45,190 nucleotides of DNA from Alistipes sp. (GTDB lineage: Bacteria > Bacteroidota > Bacteroidia > Bacteroidales > Rikenellaceae): positions 1-45,190 of the forward strand of contig JAFZFP010000019.1 in assembly GCA_017555905.1 (NCBI GenBank), written 5' to 3'. Under the pieces are notes generated by a model. That model was not told the DNA's origin. It saw only the letters and a list, made by a program, of their open reading frames with translations, and made no database searches. A program made the translations under genes and the position numbers. How positions within the stretch are numbered: the stretch's first letter is position 1; each line of letters starts with the position of its first letter. Positions 2,785 through 22,276 of this stretch are shown one piece after another.

Positions 2785-5700
2785 ATGTCCACAACACAAC
2801 AACAACGTATAAGCTTCTCTACCATCAAGAATAGGGTTCCATACCCAGACTTGTTGGAGATTCAGCTTAAGTCATTCCGAGATTTCTTCCAGCTTGACAC
2901 TACGACTGAGAACCGCAAGAATGAGGGTCTCTACCGTGTGTTCAACGAGAATTTCCCGATCACCGACACAAGAAACAACTTCGTTCTGGAGTTTATTGAC
3001 TATTACATCGACCAGCCTCGCTACTCTATCGAGGAGTGCTTGGAGCGTGGTTTGACGTATAGTGTACCTCTCAAGGCTAAGCTTAAGCTCTACTGCACTG
3101 ACACCGAGCACGAGGATTTTGATGAAGTAGTACAGGATGTTTACTTCGGTCTTATCCCTTATATGACCGAGCGTGGTACGTTCATCTTCAATGGTGCAGA
3201 GCGCGTAGTAGTATCACAGCTTCACCGTTCACCAGGTGTATTCTTTGGCCAGAGTATGCATACAAATGGCACGAAGCTCTACTCAGCACGTATCATCCCA
3301 TTCAAGGGTTCGTGGATTGAGTTTGCTACCGACATCAACAACGTGATGTATGCCTACATCGACCGTAAGAAGAAGTTGCCTGTAACAACCCTTTTGCGTG
3401 CTATCGGTTACGAGACCGACCAGCAGATTTTGGAGATCTTCGACCTCGCAGACGAGGTTAAGGTTAGCAAGGCTAACTTGAAGAAGAATGTAGGCCGCAA
3501 GCTTGCTGCACGTGTATTGTCTACTTGGGTAGAGGACTTCGTAGATGAGGATACAGGTGAGGTAGTCTCTATCGAGCGTCACAAGGTCATCGTAGACCGT
3601 GAGGTAGAGCTCGAGGAGAGCCACATCGACGAGATTATCGAGTCAGGTACTAAGACCATTCTCTTGCACAATGAGAATCCATCAGGTATCGACTTCTCGA
3701 TTATCTACAACACCCTCCACAAGGATCCTTGTAACTCCGAGAAGGAGGCCGTGGTTTACATCTACAGGCAGTTGCGCGCTTCGGAGCCACCAGATGAGGC
3801 TACTGCACGCGACGTTATCGAGAAGTTGTTCTTCTCTGACAAGCGTTATGACTTGGGCGACGTAGGTCGTTTCCGTATCAATAAGAAGCTTGATCTTTCG
3901 ATCGATCCAGCGATCCGTACACTTACTCGCGAGGATATTATCGAGATTATCAAGTATCTCATCAAACTTATCAACTCTAAGGCAGAGGTTGATGATATCG
4001 ACCACTTGTCTAACCGTCGAGTACGTACGGTAGGTGAGCAGCTTGCTAACCAGTTCTCGGTAGGTTTGGTACGTATCGCTCGCACCATCCGTGAGCGTAT
4101 GAATGTTCGTGATAGCGAGGTATTTACCCCAGAGGATTTGATCAATGCTAAGACTTTGGCGAGCGTTGTAAACTCATTCTTCGGTACCAGCCAGTTGTCA
4201 CAGTTTATGGACCAGATCAACCCATTGGCAGAGATTACGCATAAGCGTCGTCTTTCGGCGTTGGGTCCTGGTGGTTTGTCACGTGATCGCGCAGGTTTCG
4301 AGGTGCGAGACGTACACTATACCCACTATGGTCGTTTGTGTCCTATTGAGTCTCCTGAGGGTCCTAACATCGGTCTTATCTCATCTTTGTGTGTATTCGC
4401 AAAGATCTCTGATATGGGATTCATCGAGACACCTTATCGTAAGGTAAATGAGGGCGTTGTAGACCTCAATAACGATAATATCCGCTACTACTCAGCCGAG
4501 GAGGAGGAGGGTATGGTCGTAGCACAGTCAAATGAGCCACTCACTGACGACGGTCACTTCATCAATGTTGATCGTATCAAGGCTCGTCTTGGTGCCGACT
4601 TCCCTGTTGTTAACGACACTAAGGTAGACCTCGTGGATGTTGCACCTAACCAGGTTGCCTCTATCGCAGCGAGCCTTATTCCTTTCCTTGAGCACGATGA
4701 TGCTAACCGTGCGTTGATGGGATCTAACATGATGCGCCAGGCAGTGCCATTGGTTCGTCCTGAGGCTCCTATCGTAGGTACAGGTATCGAGAAGGATATG
4801 ATCGTAGACAGCCGTGTTCAGGTTGTTGCCGAGGGTGAGGGTGAGGTAGTATTTGCTGATGCTACACGCATCGAGGTACGCTACGAGCGTAGCGAGGACC
4901 AGCAGATCGCTTCCTTTGCACCAGAGGTTACTGTCTACACTCTCCCACGTTACCGTCGTACAAACCAGAATACAACAGTTACGCTTAAGCCTACTGTCCT
5001 CACTGGCGACAAGGTTACTAAGGGTCAGATCCTTACCGAGGGTTACTCTACCGAGCGTGGCGAGTTGGCTTTGGGTCGCAACTTGAAGGTTGCGTTTATG
5101 CCCTGGAAGGGTTATAACTTCGAGGATGCTATCGTTATCTCAGAGCGTATTCAGCGTGAGGATATCTTCACTTCTGTACACGTTGATGAGTATATTATGG
5201 AGGTTCGTGATACTAAGCGTGGTGTCGAGGAACTTACCTCAGACATTCCTAACGTATCGGAGGATGCAACTAAGGACTTGGATGCTAACGGTATTATCCG
5301 TGTAGGTGCCAAGGTTACTCCTGGTGATATCCTTATCGGTAAGATTACTCCTAAGGGCGAGAGCGATCCTTCACCAGAGGAGAAGTTGCTTCGTGCTATC
5401 TTCGGTGATAAGGCGGGTGATGTTAAGGATGCGTCGCTTAAGGCGCAGCCATCATTGCACGGCGTGGTTATCGATACTAAGCTCTATAGCCACACACAGA
5501 AGGAGGGTAAGCGTAATCGTGCAGCCGAGAAGGCTCAGATGGATCAGCTCGATGCCGAGTACGCAGCACAGGTAGCCGACCTTACGAAGATTCTTGTTGA
5601 GAAGTTGTGGCGCTTGTTGGAGGGTAAGACCACCACAGGTATCTACGACTACTACAACGTAGAGCTCTTCGCTCCAGGTGAGAAGTTCAGTATTAAGATG

Positions 5701-6642
5701 CTCGAGAGCATCGCGACAATCTCTACCGACAGCAAGACAGGTGTCGCTAACGGCTATATGTCGTTGGGTCAGACCCGTTGGACAGGAGATGCGCACGATG
5801 ATGCACTTATCTCATTGACCATCAACAACTACACTATCGAGTGTAAGAAGATTGCTGCGGCAGTGAACCGTGAGAAGTACAACCTCACAAATGGTGACGA
5901 GATTCCAATCTCAGGTGTTATCCAGATGGCTAAGGTCTACATCGCTAAGAAGCGTAAGCTTAAGGTAGGTGATAAGATGGCGGGTCGTCACGGTAACAAG
6001 GGTATCGTAGCCAAGGTTGTTCGCGACGAGGATATGCCATTCTTGGAGGATGGTACTATAGTGGATATCTGTTTGAACCCACTTGGTGTGCCTTCACGAA
6101 TGAACCTCGGACAGATCTATGAGACTGTTCTTGGTTGGGCAGGTAAGGAGCTTGGTCTCAAGTTCGCTACGCCTATCTTCGATGGTGCTTCTTTGGAGCA
6201 GATCAACGAGTATACCGCACAGGCAGGTGTTCCACGCAGTGGCCGTTGCTACCTCTATGATGGTGGTACAGGTGAGCGTTTCGACCAGCCAGCAACCGTG
6301 GGTGTCATCTATATGCTTAAGCTCGGTCATATGATCGACGATAAGATGCACGCTCGTTCTATCGGTCCATACTCACTCATTACACAGCAGCCATTGGGCG
6401 GTAAGGCACAGTTTGGTGGTCAGCGTTTCGGAGAGATGGAGGTTTGGGCACTCGAGGGCTTCGGTGCAGCCAACATCTTGCAGGAGATTCTTACTATCAA
6501 GTCAGACGATGTTGTCGGACGTGCTAAGGCGTACGAGGCTATTGTCAAGGGTGACAATCTTCCACGCCCCGGTGTTCCCGAGGCAATGAATGTGCTTTTG
6601 CACGAGTTGCGTGGTTTGGCACTGTCGGTAAAACTTGAGTAA
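2785..6642 (+). CDS. rpoB: DNA-directed RNA polymerase subunit beta
   Basis: This is the catalytic-core subunit of RNA polymerase. I start it at ATG 2785 ([17 protein letters not shown]), which matches Bacteroidota RpoB N-termini, rather than at the in-frame TTG at 2776; the product is 1285 residues. Landmarks: SPGVFFGQS, the rifampicin pocket S469-Q-L-S-Q-F-M-D476...H486-K-R-R-L-S491 (equivalent to E. coli 509-531), [11 protein letters not shown], and the C-terminal [14 protein letters not shown] and clamp segments. The pocket residues D476, H486 and S491 are all wild type, so target-based rifampicin resistance is not indicated. It lies 23 bases before rpoC and after the long structured spacer. 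Confidence 0.98.
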
Positions 6643-16670: not shown

Positions 16671-16707
16671 ATGGGTTAGATTAGAGCGAAGGCTCAATCT
16701 AACCCAT
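16671..16707. terminator. Bidirectional terminator between the OmpA gene and the radical SAM gene
   Basis: ATGGGTTAGATT (16671-16682) pairs with AATCTAACCCAT (16696-16707), and an inner GAGC/GCTC stem with loop GAAG extends it to about 16 pairs with one bulge. It sits between two converging genes. Downstream T content is modest (TATTTTAG on the plus strand), so termination efficiency is uncertain, but position and symmetry fit a shared terminator. Confidence 0.65.
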
Positions 16708-16733: not shown

Positions 16734-17810
16734 CTACTTTAGCATATTATAGTGGCAATACATAAGTTTTCCCTTGTCGTCGCGTAGGTGCATACCTCCA
16801 CCTCGGCAGAACTCCCATACCTTGCAGTCGCTGCACTCGTCGCACTTGGTCCACTCCCTGTCGCGGTACTCTGTGAAGCGGTTCTGCCATACGTCCCAGA
16901 ACTTGTCGCGATAGATGTTTCCTTGTGCGTAGTTGCCACGAACGCTTGTGCAACCCGATATGTCGCCATTCACACGAATTGAGGCTACGGTGATGCCCGC
17001 ATTACACATATAGAAGTGGTCGCGCACTTCTGTTTCGTATCCGCCCAAGAAGCCCTCGCAGGCGTAGTTTAAGTTTATGCGACCCTCCTTGCGTGTGCGA
17101 CTGATGAACTCCATAAGCGAGCGGAACTGCTCGGCGTTGAGGTGTAGTTTGTCGTCGCGCTTGGCACGGCCAGCAGGGAATATCGAGAAGATGCGCCAGT
17201 GTGAGATGCCTCGGCTGATGAGGTACTCCTTCCACTCTTCGAGACGCTCTATGATGGCTGGCGTTACGCAGGTGATAACGTCGTAGGTAAGACCCTCAAC
17301 TTGACGGATGTAACCTATGGCACGCTCGGCCTTAGCGAAACTATCGGGGTTTTGGCGAATGTCGTTGTGGATATCTGCAAAACCATCGAAACTTACAGAT
17401 ACTGAGCGCAGTCCAGCATCGACTAAGGCGTGTAGTCGCTCCTGACTGAGGCTCAGACCATTGGTTACCATACCCCACATATAACCTCTCTTTGTCACCT
17501 CACGACCTGCCTCCTCCAAATCCTTGCGCACCAAGACCTCGCCACCCGAGAAGATAATCAACACCTCCTTGGGATCTACGTTTGGCGTAACCTCATTGTC
17601 GAGGACATCGAGGAAGTCCTGAAGTGGCATATCGAGTTCCGAGGCGTCGGTACGGCAGTCGCTACCGCAGTGACGACAGCGCAGGTTACAACGAAGCGTA
17701 CACTCCCAAAAGAGTGTACGCAACCTGTGACGCTCCACGACACCGTCGTAGATGCTCTTAAATATCTTAAGTCCCAGGTACTTCCTAAGACCTAAACGCT
17801 TACCTTTCAC
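16734..17810 (-). CDS. Radical SAM/SPASM enzyme of a radical SAM/lipoprotein pair
   Basis: A radical S-adenosylmethionine enzyme. The 4Fe-4S motif CNLRCRHC (C-x3-C-x2-C) lies near residue 41 and is flanked by two more cysteines (WECTLRC and GSDC). IIFSGGE follows at about residue 85, and a SPASM-like C-terminal cysteine cluster (CDECSDCKVWEFC ... MYC) suits auxiliary iron-sulfur clusters. Such proteins often modify peptides. No ATG start exists: I chose GTG 17810 (358 residues), 13 bases after the lipoprotein stop; TTG 17849 would overlap that gene by 26 bases. NCBIfam, as I recall it, recognises a Bacteroidota-only radical SAM enzyme paired with a small lipoprotein; this pair fits. The reaction is unknown. 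Confidence 0.85.
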   Translation of the reverse strand: MKGKRLGLRKYLGLKIFKSIYDGVVERHRLRTLFWECTLRCNLRCRHCGSDCRTDASELDMPLQDFLDVLDNEVTPNVDPKEVLIIFSGGEVLVRKDLEEAGREVTKRGYMWGMVTNGLSLSQERLHALVDAGLRSVSVSFDGFADIHNDIRQNPDSFAKAERAIGYIRQVEGLTYDVITCVTPAIIERLEEWKEYLISRGISHWRIFSIFPAGRAKRDDKLHLNAEQFRSLMEFISRTRKEGRINLNYACEGFLGGYETEVRDHFYMCNAGITVASIRVNGDISGCTSVRGNYAQGNIYRDKFWDVWQNRFTEYRDREWTKCDECSDCKVWEFCRGGGMHLRDDKGKLMYCHYNMLK

Positions 17811-17823
17811 AATGTGAGGGGTG

Positions 17824-18153
17824 TTACTCCTGAGAAGTCTCCTCAACAACCTCGGCCTTCTCCATCTGCTCGATGCGCTTTGCAGCCTCCTCCTCAGTGA
17901 GTGGGCTTACAACACGGCCGTCAGGGAATGGAACGCCACCCTTGTTAGGTGTATTCTCATCATCGATAGGGCGAACTACAGTGCCGTCAGGGAATGGCAC
18001 GCCATACATAAGCATAATGCGTGGATCCTCCTCCTCGGTAACGATATCCTGACTCTTCTTATCTTCGCTCTTTGTTGCCTTCTTAGTGCCACAGCACGCT
18101 ACGGTCGAGAAACCGAGAAGTGACAATAGAGCAACCTTCCATTTCATATTCAT
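17824..18153 (-). CDS. Small lipoprotein with duplicated GVPFPDG motif, partner of the radical SAM enzyme
   Basis: The product has 109 residues (107 if it starts at the second Met, 18147). The signal sequence MKWKVALLSLLGFSTVA ends at tandem cysteines C20-C21, a lipobox. The mature part is polar and contains two near-copies: GVPFPDGTVVRPI (51-63, preceded by IMLMY) and GVPFPDGRVVSPL (73-85), separated by an Asn/Asp/Lys-rich spacer; the end is acidic and helical. The repeats are also nearly identical at DNA level, so the duplication is recent or constrained. It lies just upstream of the radical SAM gene on one transcript, so it is the likely substrate or partner. The YGVP block resembles lipoproteins described next to such enzymes; assignment to that family is by memory. 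Confidence 0.75.
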   Translation of the reverse strand: MNMKWKVALLSLLGFSTVACCGTKKATKSEDKKSQDIVTEEEDPRIMLMYGVPFPDGTVVRPIDDENTPNKGGVPFPDGRVVSPLTEEEAAKRIEQMEKAEVVEETSQE

Positions 18154-18194
18154 AACACCAAGTTTTATGTTGTTAGTGACTTAATACTCTTCGA

Positions 18195-18226
18195 CAAATA
18201 TAAGAGATTTTATCATATTTTACAAA
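18195..18226 (-). promoter_or_regulatory. Promoter for the lipoprotein-radical SAM operon
   Basis: On the minus strand, TTTG (18223-18226) is followed by 20 bases and TATATTTG (18195-18202), matching the Bacteroidota consensus with one extra spacer base. It ends 41 bases upstream of the lipoprotein start. Confidence 0.7.
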
Positions 18227-18526: not shown

Positions 18527-18558
18527 TTTGCAAAATAATATATTTCTTCTTATCTTTG
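18527..18558 (+). promoter_or_regulatory. Promoter of the metY-metX-hom leader
   Basis: TTTG (18527-18530), 20 bases, then TATCTTTG (18551-18558), a good Bacteroidota promoter. Transcription should begin near 18565, giving a leader of about 215 bases before metY that contains the short Met-rich peptide ORF and several hairpins. Confidence 0.75.
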
Positions 18559-18780: not shown

Positions 18781-20064
18781 ATGTCAGATAGAAAACTACG
18801 TTTCGAGACGCTACAGATTCACGGTGGTTACCACGTCGATGAGTCTAATGCACGAGGCATCGCCATACATCCAACTGCTGCATACCACTTCCCAACTTGT
18901 GACTATGCCGCAAACCTATTCACCCTTAGTGAGCCAGGTTATATCTATACTCGCCTCCACAACCCTACAACAGCGGCCTATGAGGAGCGTATCGCGGCCC
19001 TCTATGGTGGTGTAGGCGCTTTGGCTACAGCATCGGGAATGTCGGCCATACTTCTTACCGTGACTGCCTTGGCTAAGGCGGGTGAGAATATTGTGGCATC
19101 GCCCTACCTCTATGGTGGTACTCATAACCAGTTTGTTATCTCGTTGCGCAACGTCGGCATCGAGTGTCGTTTGGCCGAGAGCGATAGCTCAGAGGATATC
19201 GCGAAACTCATCGACGAGAATACTCGTGCAGTCTTTGTGGAGTCTATGGGTAACCCTACCTGCCGTGTTGCAGATATCGAGGCGTTGGCCGAGGTGGCGC
19301 ATAGTAACAATATCCCACTTATCGTAGATAATACGTTTGGTGCGGGAGGTTACCTCTGCAACCCCTTCGAGTGGGGCGCAGATATCATCACCGACTCGGC
19401 TACAAAGTGGATTAATGGTCACGGTACGGCTATGGGCGGTATCATCGTCGATGGCGGTAAGTTCGATTGGCGTGCGTCGGGTAAGTTTCCTCAGATTGAT
19501 GGTCCATCGGAGGGTTATCACGGCCTAAACCTCTACGAAGCCTTTGGCCCTCAGGCCTTTATAGTGAAGTGTAGAGTGGATGGTATGCGTGACTTCGGTT
19601 GTTGTCCTTCGGCCTTCGACGCCTATCTGATGTTGCTCGGTTTGGAGACATTGTCGTTGCGAGTTAAGCACGAGGTAGAGTCGGCCTATAAGTTGGCGGA
19701 GTTCTGTCGTCAGCACCCTAAGGTTGAGCGAGTTAGTTTCGTAGGTTTCGAGGATCACCCATCATATAAGTTGGCGCAGAAGTACTATCGTTTTGGCGCT
19801 TCGGCTGTTCTCACCATAGAACTTAAGGGCGACTTGGACTCTACCATTAAGTTCGTCGAGAGCCTCAAACTATCGGGCAATATGACTATGATTGGCGATT
19901 CGATATCTGTCGTTACCCATCCAGCCTCTACTACGCACAAGCAACTATCCGACGAGGCTAAGCGTGCCGCAGGTATCACACCTACACTCTTGCGCGTATC
20001 GTTGGGTTTGGAGAATGTGGAGGATATCATTGCTGACTACGAGGAGGCTCTTGCAAACGTATAG
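18781..20064 (+). CDS. metY: O-acetylhomoserine sulfhydrylase (O-acetylhomoserine aminocarboxypropyltransferase)
   Basis: A PLP enzyme of the Cys/Met-metabolism family that forms homocysteine from O-acetylhomoserine and sulfide. At 427 residues it has the MetY length, longer than cystathionine synthases (about 380-400). The PLP lysine is K209 in DSATKWINGHG; YTRLHNPT (56-63) and the SGMSAI cofactor-phosphate segment are present, and the C-terminus has LLRVSLGLEN(V)EDI. The first residues (RKLRFETLQIHGGY) match MetY openings. It is the first gene of metY-metX-hom behind a Met-rich leader. The gene directly downstream makes its substrate, which supports the acetyl-ester specificity. Confidence 0.94.
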   Translation: MSDRKLRFETLQIHGGYHVDESNARGIAIHPTAAYHFPTCDYAANLFTLSEPGYIYTRLHNPTTAAYEERIAALYGGVGALATASGMSAILLTVTALAKAGENIVASPYLYGGTHNQFVISLRNVGIECRLAESDSSEDIAKLIDENTRAVFVESMGNPTCRVADIEALAEVAHSNNIPLIVDNTFGAGGYLCNPFEWGADIITDSATKWINGHGTAMGGIIVDGGKFDWRASGKFPQIDGPSEGYHGLNLYEAFGPQAFIVKCRVDGMRDFGCCPSAFDAYLMLLGLETLSLRVKHEVESAYKLAEFCRQHPKVERVSFVGFEDHPSYKLAQKYYRFGASAVLTIELKGDLDSTIKFVESLKLSGNMTMIGDSISVVTHPASTTHKQLSDEAKRAAGITPTLLRVSLGLENVEDIIADYEEALANV

Positions 20065-20074
20065 GCGTTGAGGT

Positions 20075-21091
20075 ATGAGTAAGGTCTATCATCATAACAC
20101 CCCTTTATGCCTTGAGTCTGGCGAGATACTCCCAGAGGTAGATATTGTCTACGACACCTTTGGAGAACTCAACGAGGCTAAGGATAATGTTATCTGGGTT
20201 TGTCACGCTCTTACGGCGAACTCCGATGTTGCCGATTGGTGGCCACATACTGTGGAGGAGGGGCGTTTCCTCGACCCTTCGCGCTACTTTATCATCTGCG
20301 CAAACTTCCTTGGCTCCCACTATGGTACCACCTCTCCGTTGTCGATAAACCCTGCTACGGGCGAGAAGTACTACTACGACTTCCCACGTATCACGGTGCG
20401 CGATATGGTGCGATGCCACCAACTCTTGGCCCGCCACTTGGGTATCGAGCGAGTGAAGATGCTAATCGGTAGTTCCATCGGAGGTTTCCAGTGTATGGAG
20501 TGGGCGATTATGGAACCCCACTTTATGGAGCATCTAGCCCTTATTGCCACAACGACTTGTTCTGAGCCTTGGGCTGCGGCCTTCAATGAGTCGCAACGAA
20601 TGGCGATTCGCCTCGATAGGAGTTGGGGTGAGCGACGCGATGATGCAGGCCTTGATGGTATGGCCGTAGCACGCTCCATAGCCCTCATTAGTTATCGTGG
20701 AGGTGCTGCCTATAACGCAACACAGCAGGATAACAACGTCGATATCTCCTTCGAGCGCAGGGCGCATAGTTATCAGCAGTATCAGGGCGAAAAGTTGCGC
20801 AGAAGGTTTAATGCCATCTCCTACTACAGACTCTCCGAGGCGGTGGATTCTCACAACATAGCCCGAGAGAGAGGCTCAATTGCCCAGGCGCTCAGTGCCA
20901 TTAAGGCTCGCACGTTGGTCGTAGCAATCTCCTCCGATATACTCTTTCCTCCCGAGGCTCACATCCCTCTTAGGGAGCATATCTCGGATGTGGAGTATCA
21001 CCTCATAGAGTCGGAGTTTGGTCACGATGGTTTTTTGGTTGAACACGACAAATTAAATAGGATAATTACGAACTTTATAAATACTAAGTAG
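20075..21091 (+). CDS. metX: Homoserine O-acetyltransferase
   Basis: An alpha/beta-hydrolase-fold acyltransferase that transfers an acyl group, normally acetyl, to homoserine to activate it for sulfhydrylation. It has 338 residues. The triad is S134 in IGSSIGGFQ, D288 in AISSDILFPP and H317 in EFGHDGFL. The N-terminal VCHALTANS and NFLGSHYGTTSP loops match the MetX oxyanion and substrate pocket. It starts 10 bases after metY and ends 3 bases before hom, so the three genes are clearly one operon. Acetyl versus succinyl specificity is not certain from sequence, but pairing with MetY favours acetyl. Confidence 0.94.
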   Translation: MSKVYHHNTPLCLESGEILPEVDIVYDTFGELNEAKDNVIWVCHALTANSDVADWWPHTVEEGRFLDPSRYFIICANFLGSHYGTTSPLSINPATGEKYYYDFPRITVRDMVRCHQLLARHLGIERVKMLIGSSIGGFQCMEWAIMEPHFMEHLALIATTTCSEPWAAAFNESQRMAIRLDRSWGERRDDAGLDGMAVARSIALISYRGGAAYNATQQDNNVDISFERRAHSYQQYQGEKLRRRFNAISYYRLSEAVDSHNIARERGSIAQALSAIKARTLVVAISSDILFPPEAHIPLREHISDVEYHLIESEFGHDGFLVEHDKLNRIITNFINTK

Positions 21092-21094
21092 GTT

Positions 21095-22276
21095 ATGAAA
21101 AACTTGAATATAGGACTCTTTGGTTTTGGAAATGTGGGTCGCGGTTTGTACGACGTTCTTAAGCGTATCAATTCGGAGAATGTACACATCAAGCGTGTAT
21201 GTGTGCGCGATCTTAACAAGCCACGTGGCGTAGAGGCTGAGTTTACCAACAATGCCGACGACATCTTCAACGATAAGGATATCAACCTCATTGTCGAGGT
21301 TATCGACGATGCCGAAGCAGCATACGATATCGTTAAGCGTGCGTTGAAGAGTCGCATTCCTGTAGTTTCAGGCAACAAGAAGATGTTGGGTCACCATATC
21401 CTTGAACTCATCGACATTCAGGCACAGTACAACACTCCATTGCTCTACGACGCTTCGGCGTGTGGCTCAATTCCAGTGATTCGTAACCTCGAAGAGTACT
21501 ACGACAACGACCTTCTCTGCTCGGTGAAGGGTATCTTGAATGGCTCATCAAACTTCATCCTTTCGAAGATCTTCAACGAGCATATGTCCTATGGCGACGC
21601 TTTGAAGTTGGCACAGGACTTGGGCTTTGCCGAGAGCAACCCAACACTTGACATCGATGGCTGGGACTCGTTGTATAAACTCATCATCATCACCGTTCAC
21701 GCCTTCGGTGTCTATGTTGCTCCCGAGGAGATTCTCACCTACGGTATCTCTACGATGAACGATGCCGACATCCGCTTCGCTTTGGAGAAGGATCGCCGTA
21801 TCAAACTCGTAGCACACGTCGAGAAGATTGATGATAGACTTATTATGTGTGTGTTGCCTCAGTTGATCTCTCGCAACAAGTATATCTATAGTGTTGAGGA
21901 TGAGTTCAATGGCGTGGTAATCAAGGGTTTGTTCTACGACAAACAGTTTATGTTCGGTCGTGGTGCTGGTGGTCACCCAACTGGCTCGGCTGTGCTTAGC
22001 GATATCACCGCTTGTGCCTACAACTATCGCTACGAGTACAAGAAGCGCAACGACTCGGTGTTGCCTCGTTACACCACCGAGCATACCTTCCGTGTCTACT
22101 TCCGCTATAAGAGTGCAGAGCAACGTAATCTGTTGAACTTTACAAAGATACGTGAGCAGTACACATCCGATGATTATAACTATATCGTGGGTGATGTTAC
22201 CTTGAGCAACCTCAAGGCTCATCAGGAAGAGTTGCGAATCAAGGATTGTTTCGTTGCAGCCTATCCGCTCGACTAA
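21095..22276 (+). CDS. hom: Homoserine dehydrogenase
   Basis: It reduces aspartate semialdehyde to homoserine with NAD(P)H, supplying the substrate of MetX. It has 393 residues and is not fused to aspartokinase. The Rossmann motif GFGNVGRG is at 9-16; VVSGNKKML (about 90-98) and ACGSIPVI...KGILNGSSNFIL form the catalytic domain. After about residue 310 the protein is divergent and I cannot see a clear ACT domain, so Thr feedback inhibition may be absent or altered. Placement behind metY-metX, rather than with thrB/thrC, suggests that this enzyme is dedicated to or controlled with methionine synthesis. Confidence 0.9.
   Translation: MKNLNIGLFGFGNVGRGLYDVLKRINSENVHIKRVCVRDLNKPRGVEAEFTNNADDIFNDKDINLIVEVIDDAEAAYDIVKRALKSRIPVVSGNKKMLGHHILELIDIQAQYNTPLLYDASACGSIPVIRNLEEYYDNDLLCSVKGILNGSSNFILSKIFNEHMSYGDALKLAQDLGFAESNPTLDIDGWDSLYKLIIITVHAFGVYVAPEEILTYGISTMNDADIRFALEKDRRIKLVAHVEKIDDRLIMCVLPQLISRNKYIYSVEDEFNGVVIKGLFYDKQFMFGRGAGGHPTGSAVLSDITACAYNYRYEYKKRNDSVLPRYTTEHTFRVYFRYKSAEQRNLLNFTKIREQYTSDDYNYIVGDVTLSNLKAHQEELRIKDCFVAAYPLD

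Follow-up and report, generated by a model that had tools for sequence, protein, structure and literature searches.

A lipoprotein and its companion radical SAM enzyme in Alistipes: a conserved Tyr-Gly as the probable site of modification and tyramine excision as a candidate chemistry

Why would a gut bacterium devote a radical S-adenosylmethionine (SAM) enzyme to a single small lipoprotein, and what might the enzyme do to it? In a stretch of 45,190 nucleotides from Alistipes sp. (contig JAFZFP010000019.1 of assembly GCA_017555905.1, positions 1 to 45,190 of the forward strand; "the window" here means this whole stretch), the genes for a lipoprotein and a radical SAM/SPASM enzyme form an operon at 18226-16734 on the minus strand, behind a promoter of the Bacteroidales type. 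From the conservation of the lipoprotein and its relatives, we argue that the site of modification is very probably one Tyr-Gly pair (Y-G). Beyond this lies a fuller account, whose chances we put at about even, in which an enzyme directed to X-Y-G motifs in lipoproteins would excise tyramine and leave a ketoamide anchored in the envelope.

Results

The operon and its two products

The operon has the following elements, all on the minus strand.

17824..18153, minus: putative lipoprotein, 109 aa, the proposed substrate (from the sequence and from homologues upstream of the enzyme)
18094..18153, minus: signal peptide with LLGFS and the lipobox Cys, residues 1-20, which may serve as leader as well (from conservation)
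17998..18009, minus: M-Y-G-V, residues 49-52, the proposed modification core with its X-Y-G motif (from conservation)
17965..18003, minus: block 1, GVPFPDGTVVRPI, overlapping the Y-G core (from the sequence)
17899..17937, minus: block 2, GVPFPDGRVVSPL, preceded by KG and lacking Tyr (from the sequence)
16734..17810, minus: TIGR04133 radical SAM/SPASM enzyme, GTG start, 358 aa (from the NCBIfam score, with the start taken from relatives)
17667..17690, minus: CxxxCxxC followed by GS (C54, C58 and C61 of the 371-aa frame; from alignment)
18195..18226, minus: promoter-like element TTTG-N20-TATATTTG (exact match to the Bacteroidales -33/-7 type)

The enzyme frame (17849-16734, minus strand, 371 aa) has no ATG ahead of CxxxCxxC. 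Among relatives that keep a KGK(R/H) stretch, the codon directly before it is ATG, GTG or TTG, and comparison with them places the start of the window enzyme at the GTG of 17810-17808, 13 nt past the lipoprotein's TAA stop (17826-17824); the alternative upstream TTG at 17849 would make the two genes overlap. An earlier reading of this DNA, made from the letters alone (the sequence-only reading), had described a SPASM-type enzyme without an ATG start, 13 bases behind or overlapping a small lipoprotein with two near-identical blocks, with a dedicated promoter for both, and in all of this it was right. Pfam's Radical_SAM and SPASM models both match the enzyme, both blocks are present in the 109-aa protein, and the promoter-like element stands ahead of it. 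That element conforms to the Bacteroidales -33/-7 promoter consensus, and its pattern occurs 4 times in the window where shuffled sequences lead one to expect 0.28.

Is such a pairing already known? By name it is, as NCBIfam TIGR04133 (rSAM_w_lipo) and TIGR04134 (lipo_with_rSAM). The window enzyme is a full member of the first family, scoring 559.5 bits against a curated cut-off of 425 over positions 1-349 of the 350 in the profile, and, as in the named pair, the lipoprotein gene lies directly upstream and a Y-G core lies beyond the lipid-bearing Cys. The window lipoprotein differs from the named partner. Its signal, MNMKWKVALLSLLGFSTVAC, with the lipobox Cys, marks it by sequence as a bacterial lipoprotein, but no NCBIfam or Pfam model matches it at E<=0.1, TIGR04134 (cut-off 39.8 bits) included, and its tail beyond the core, charged, rich in Pro/Glu and bearing P-D-G blocks, sets it apart from TIGR04134. 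A search of the window genome with TIGR04134 gives only two places, both on contig C21 and neither of them the window lipoprotein. The earlier statement that this type of pairing has a name is borne out; the window lipoprotein is of a type without an existing model.

Tyr-Gly is constant and the repeat is not

Which part of the lipoprotein would the enzyme act on? The sequence-only reading had pointed to the repeated GVPFPDG. Scanning genome contigs, we found 46 loci with kinship to the window enzyme, mostly from Alistipes, and for the close ones (41 of the 43 wanted; L026 and L033 were excluded by the enzyme pattern) we took the signal-bearing open reading frame (ORF) just upstream of the enzyme, one per locus and with no motif filter. 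YG is present in 41/41, [ML]YGV in 40/41 and LG[FL][ST] in 40/41; the lipoprotein of L032 is of a different type, with CYGVG. We also chose 39 distinct window-type lipoproteins, with [ML]YGV required, so that the invariance of YGV among them is partly built in. In these, the residue before Y is M in 38 and L in one, YG occurs exactly once in 38 and twice in L016, and the LLGFS of the signal peptide has one L, the G and the S invariant and the F in 85%. Among the loci examined, window-type lipoproteins were met only in Alistipes and other Rikenellaceae.

The blocks behave differently. Counted as P-[DNE]-G, they number none in 9 of the 39 proteins, one in 8 (two of these, L008 and L013, also carry a second, degenerate block with EDG), two in 15, three in 6 and four in 1, and the doubled block is therefore a lineage variant, as had been supposed. 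The attraction of the repeat as a modification site is easy to see, with two near-identical copies in the window protein and up to four blocks in some relatives. Yet, although two or more blocks are found in 22/39, there are none or only one in 17/39, each of which adjoins the enzyme all the same, while every one of the 41 close loci keeps its YG; many YG lipoproteins built on other scaffolds have no such block in the stretches inspected. Within the window protein the residues ahead of the two blocks are MY for the first (LMYGVPFPDG) and KG for the second (NKGGVPFPDG), and the conserved Tyr is found only in the first. We have rejected the repeat on these grounds (a second block without Tyr, a variable number of blocks, a constant Y-G) and think it very unlikely that GVPFPDG is modified.

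The core recurs across the enzyme family

TIGR04133 is a hypothetical-equivalog family present in about a quarter of the sampled Bacteroidales genomes: 49/198 in one draw, 91/359 in a larger, overlapping one and 16/61 among Rikenellaceae. A phylum-wide draw has it in 2/296, one of them the window genome itself. A plasmid of Treponema saccharophilum carries it too, together with a lipoprotein that reads SCYGMP; phages gave 3 records only, with weak matches. We examined the surroundings of the 60 loci that are the TIGR04133 matches of the 198-genome draw outside the window genome, and in 56 of them an exported protein with YG lies either upstream, at most about 0.8 kb away, or immediately downstream. 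The downstream cases are L072, L078, L085 and L104, and in the first three of these the protein is secreted, with AQYG, and is not a lipoprotein.

For counts of lipoprotein-like ORFs we used the 109 of 122 loci that matched a strict enzyme pattern. The 13 left out by that pattern are L026, L033, L043, L047, L049, L061, L087 and L105-L110, ten of which have YG neighbours (none was found for L043, L047 and L109); L036 and the TIGR04103-like loci also stand outside the set. Near ORFs, meaning those no more than 340 nt upstream of the cluster codons of the enzyme, carry YG in 94/101 cases, as against 9/58 for far ORFs, which lie elsewhere in the same loci and have at least 25 aa, and for YG.P the figures are 76/101 and 0/58; the corresponding Fisher values, 4e-24 and 8e-24, are too strong, because the loci are related and a few are duplicates. 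Other lipoprotein-like ORFs within 1.4 kb upstream have YG in 23/52 and YG.P in 17/52. Several of the seven near ORFs without YG resemble chance frames; the one at L075 resembles a real lipoprotein. The signal-peptide motif [LIW]LGF is found in 50 of the 94 YG-bearing near lipoproteins and in none of the 58 far ones.

What surrounds the core is free to change. Directly ahead of Y-G, the 117 YG-bearing ORFs have M in 55 cases, C in 17, E in 16, K in 10, V in 7, A in 6, L in 4, and D and S in 1 each; the residue after it is mostly V or T, with S, C, Q, A, I, G, D and others besides; and the second residue after it is P in 93 and R in 12. The scaffolds differ as well, from TIGR04134 proteins to short tandem peptides, proteins with CYGTP at the lipid Cys itself and charged proteins with VYGSPEV.

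The genome that holds the window contains another TIGR04133 gene (L003 1501-2518, G000:C21), which lies downstream of three tandem lipoproteins with AMYGCP, DMYGCP and ACYGTP; the middle one, of about 58 aa, is unlisted by the TIGR04134 model.

Genomes with and without the enzyme

A profile of the window-type lipoprotein matches 7/61 Rikenellaceae genomes (weakly in G523, at 25.2 bits), and all 7 have TIGR04133 directly beside the match. Among Bacteroidales, TIGR04133 (E<=1e-80) is present in 52/54 genomes that have an over-cut-off TIGR04134 protein and in 39/305 others (Fisher 5e-35, a value too strong because of related sampling). Far from standing apart as often as together, then, the two genes go together, and the earlier view of a peptide-modification pair, whose product would naturally be modified first and exported afterwards, agrees with what we see.

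What of genomes that lack the enzyme? In G613 a TIGR04134 homologue (79.7 bits) reads GNGSPYAK where its relatives have EYGSPSAD, with Asn in place of Tyr, and no TIGR04133 was detected there at E<=1e-80, no laxer search having been made; this Tyr-less homologue would be a natural control. G078 has a TIGR04134 homologue without YG, and its best TIGR04133 score, 42 bits, is below the cut-off and at noise level. The weak hits (24-27 bits) in the enzyme-less G087, G088 and G152 have no YG and are perhaps not true homologues; nine other weak TIGR04134 hits, in frames of at least 577 aa, were not counted as members.

One might imagine instead that the lipoprotein is no substrate at all, that Y-G-x-P binds a partner, and that the enzyme acts elsewhere or is an assembly factor. 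YG is indeed kept by 11/12 TIGR04134 proteins encoded at a distance from TIGR04133 in the enzyme-bearing genomes of the first draw, as would be expected of a substrate and also of a general binding motif, and G550, a 94% complete assembly, keeps it in two TIGR04134 proteins with no TIGR04133 detected at E<=1e-80, again with no laxer search. But the co-occurrence and adjacency just described, and the missing Tyr of G613 and G078, two genomes with no enzyme over threshold, make a pure binding motif improbable. To the thought that the two genes are chance neighbours or a decaying pair we give almost no credence: a CYGTPQ lipoprotein does stand intact beside a broken TIGR04133 gene in G018, but the window pair is intact, is conserved in relatives and has a promoter and an operon structure. 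(The broken gene, at L159 911-1334 on G018:C80, matches only model positions 1-41 and 248-349.)

G550 and G018 must also be entered against a Tyr-Gly substrate as we conceive it, and they have company. L153 is a TIGR04134 protein without YG in an enzyme-bearing genome; in 4 of the 60 Bacteroidales loci (L071, L075, L090 and L109, the last at a contig end) no YG neighbour was found; and two Rikenellaceae loci, L126 and L127, offer VYGDD only. (For a third, L128, no YG neighbour was found on a contig that starts 168 bases before the enzyme match.) With these counted in, the conserved pattern still makes Y-G, to our minds, the very probable site of modification.

Kinship with the spliceases

If Tyr-Gly is the site, what could the chemistry be? 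Spliceases of the PlpX type fall in NCBIfam under TIGR04103, presumably the same as IPR026482. PlpX belongs to IPR026482 and works with an RRE protein, PlpY (PMC11002830), and PlpXY excises tyramine (C8H9NO, -135.0757 Da) from X-Y-G, its native sites being MYG and LYG (PMC10533398). Table 1 of the same source lists tags tested at places in FtsZ, GGPIRPLYGLPI and GAVAAGYGVVFPG among them, and most of these tags, including those two, were unmodified (PMC10533398). Spliceases and spliceotides are described as widely occurring, with protease inhibition reported, in PMC10373908 and PMC11117315.

Raw NCBIfam scores were considered as proof of kinship and rejected, since the NirJ2 and heme b synthase models score the window enzyme much as TIGR04103 does. 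Because these scores do not discriminate, we relied on a tree of 38 enzymes, made up of 22 TIGR04133 members, 8 of TIGR04103/TIGR03913 type and 8 outgroups (PlpX itself was not included, and out_Indio2, with a branch of 10 and a doubtful status as homologue, was left out). TIGR04133 clades with the TIGR04103/TIGR03913-type enzymes with support of 100/99 against the 8 outgroups, a thin outgroup sampling. HCGS at the cluster motif is found in 30/30 clade members and 0/8 outgroups, and CxxxCxxC with GS is invariant in an alignment of 30 sequences, the window enzyme among them. For the enzymes of L132 and L133 the top three NCBIfam models are TIGR03913, TIGR04103 and TIGR04133; for L134, TIGR04133 comes fourth.

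With PlpXY, then, the window pair shares a SPASM radical SAM enzyme of a common wider clade and an X-Y-G core, the window's MYG being itself a native PlpXY site and the x-P after Y-G being as in the tag LYGLPI. It differs in that its enzyme belongs to a sister family, with one SPASM Cys missing and no PlpY-like neighbour in the window, and in that a lipoprotein bearing a Sec signal takes the place of a Nif11 or NHLP precursor as the proposed substrate. The GDL-motif maturases of TIGR03913 share the clade and give the window enzyme its best non-self score (131 bits), but the partners seen for them, small DUF1843 proteins, do not all keep Y-G.

Several facts about the enzyme and its kin add to the contrary evidence. 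The window enzyme scores 115.2 bits against TIGR04103, whose cut-off is 725, and so is not a PlpX family member; the models for TIGR03913, NirJ2 and heme b synthase give it equal or higher scores. TIGR04133 sits on a separate long branch of 2.49. The SPASM pattern CX2CX5CX3C is incomplete in the window enzyme (stretch CSDCKVWEFCRGGG), its last Cys being G or A in 21/21 TIGR04133 rows that have the stretch and Cys in 8/8 of TIGR04103/TIGR03913 type, and the auxiliary clusters and the chemistry may therefore differ; loss of this Cys is not unusual, however, because 6/8 outgroups lack it at the same place. Nor do the partners of TIGR04103-like enzymes conform throughout. L113 has a protein with LLYGTPP beside such an enzyme, but the homologue of this partner in L112/L133 ends in VLYMAHSK, without YG, and for L114/L135 no YG partner was found alongside; the DUF1843 partners just mentioned belong here too. 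Finally, no PlpY-like protein is among the window neighbours, the genome and the other loci not having been searched for one.

Three neighbourhoods in or near this clade deserve a word in their own right. A Nostoc plasmid enzyme, titled as TIGR04103, adjoins a Nif11 precursor ending in ALYGLPPELF and a 71-aa ORF, a PlpY candidate that has no Pfam match. In L134, from a Bacteroidales genome, the neighbour of a TIGR04103-like enzyme is a protein of 214 aa (5455-6099) with six terminal KYGYP motifs (five KYGYPC and one KYGYPGC), which looks, from its sequence, like a splicease substrate with multiple sites. On an Agathobacter rectalis plasmid (L140 2809-2916), an unlisted 35-aa ORF ending in GPVMYGTGVRM lies immediately ahead of a radical SAM gene that belongs to this clade.

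Discussion

A lipoprotein-directed splicease?

We propose the following course of events. The operon would make a lipoprotein precursor and a dedicated modifying enzyme. In the cytosol, the TIGR04133 enzyme would recognize the precursor through its unusual signal peptide, with LLGFS, which is the likely recognition element because it is the other strongly conserved part besides the core. Before the precursor is exported by Sec and lipidated, the enzyme would then act on the single Tyr-Gly of M-Y-G-V, whose Tyr lies 30 residues past the lipid Cys. If the reaction is, as we think most likely, a tyramine excision like that of PlpX, Met-Tyr-Gly would become an alpha-keto-beta-methionine residue followed by Gly, and a protein anchored in the envelope would then carry an electrophilic ketoamide. 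By analogy with the spliceotides, such a product could plausibly be a tethered protease inhibitor in which the side chain at X, a Met in this case, determines the target. Everything else in the lipoprotein, including the doubled block, would serve as a scaffold that can be replaced.

Tyramine splicing is the most economical chemistry to suggest, because of the motif and the kinship, but a radical enzyme could do other things at a Tyr-Gly: crosslink the Tyr, oxidize or desaturate its C-beta, epimerize, or build a three-residue cyclophane. The long branch and the SPASM Cys that TIGR04133 lacks relative to the TIGR04103/TIGR03913-type rows leave room for this, as does the mycofactocin maturase, a SPASM enzyme that acts on Tyr by a different chemistry (PMC8326336). 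On the other side, the constant part is Y-G, which is what a splicease requires, and the residue after it varies among the 117 ORFs, Gly and Pro included (KYGGP, KYGPP); a crosslink to that residue is therefore ill-suited. We consider one of these other chemistries possible, though decidedly less likely than not to be the answer. For the enzyme that splices, modifies X-Y-G in lipoproteins and leaves a ketoamide in the envelope, we would call the balance even.

The broader form of this proposal is more tentative, and we lean slightly away from it: that TIGR04133 enzymes as a family may be lipoprotein-directed spliceases, that Bacteroidales may display ketoamide beta-residues on their lipoproteins, that the signal peptide may double as leader, and that X may set the protease target. 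If it is true, common gut bacteria would carry reactive ketoamides on their envelope. No paper in the literature searched names TIGR04133 or TIGR04134, and a common X-Y-G core with a link to spliceases was not found there either, the likeliest survey, of 2022, lying outside that search. A link between TIGR04133 and splicing was not found in the accessible text of PMC10533398, PMC10373908, PMC11002830, PMC11117315, PMC8326336, PMC10885120, PMC10352776, PMC12114271 or PMC10994174, and in a paper that mines Bacteroidales for ribosomally synthesized and post-translationally modified peptides the words lipoprotein and Alistipes are absent from the main text (PMC10352776).

Around the operon

The neighbours of the operon, by family searches of the window proteins, are a convergent OmpA-family gene and a divergent cold-shock gene. 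One further element lies at its downstream end.

16671..16707, no strand assigned: inverted repeat ATGGGTTAGATT...AATCTAACCCAT, found by eye in the gap that separates the enzyme stop from the convergent OmpA-family gene

It is possibly a terminator shared by the enzyme and OmpA-family genes; a terminator scan did not report it. On the other side, another exact match to the Bacteroidales-type promoter stands at 18527-18558 on the plus strand of the window. It precedes a series of genes (18781-22276) that, to judge from their translations, appear to serve methionine biosynthesis. A search against Rfam gave 0 matches, and hence no Rfam element near that promoter.

Within the enzyme gene, the codons for RTLFWECT (17696-17721, minus strand) hold an inverted repeat with a 10-bp stem, GCGTACACTC / GAGTGTACGC. 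It is complete in 25/109 loci, all near the window type, and its stem is partly or mostly lost elsewhere; over these 8 residues, codon conservation in 27 Alistipes-type loci is about 0.95, against a gene mean of 0.65.

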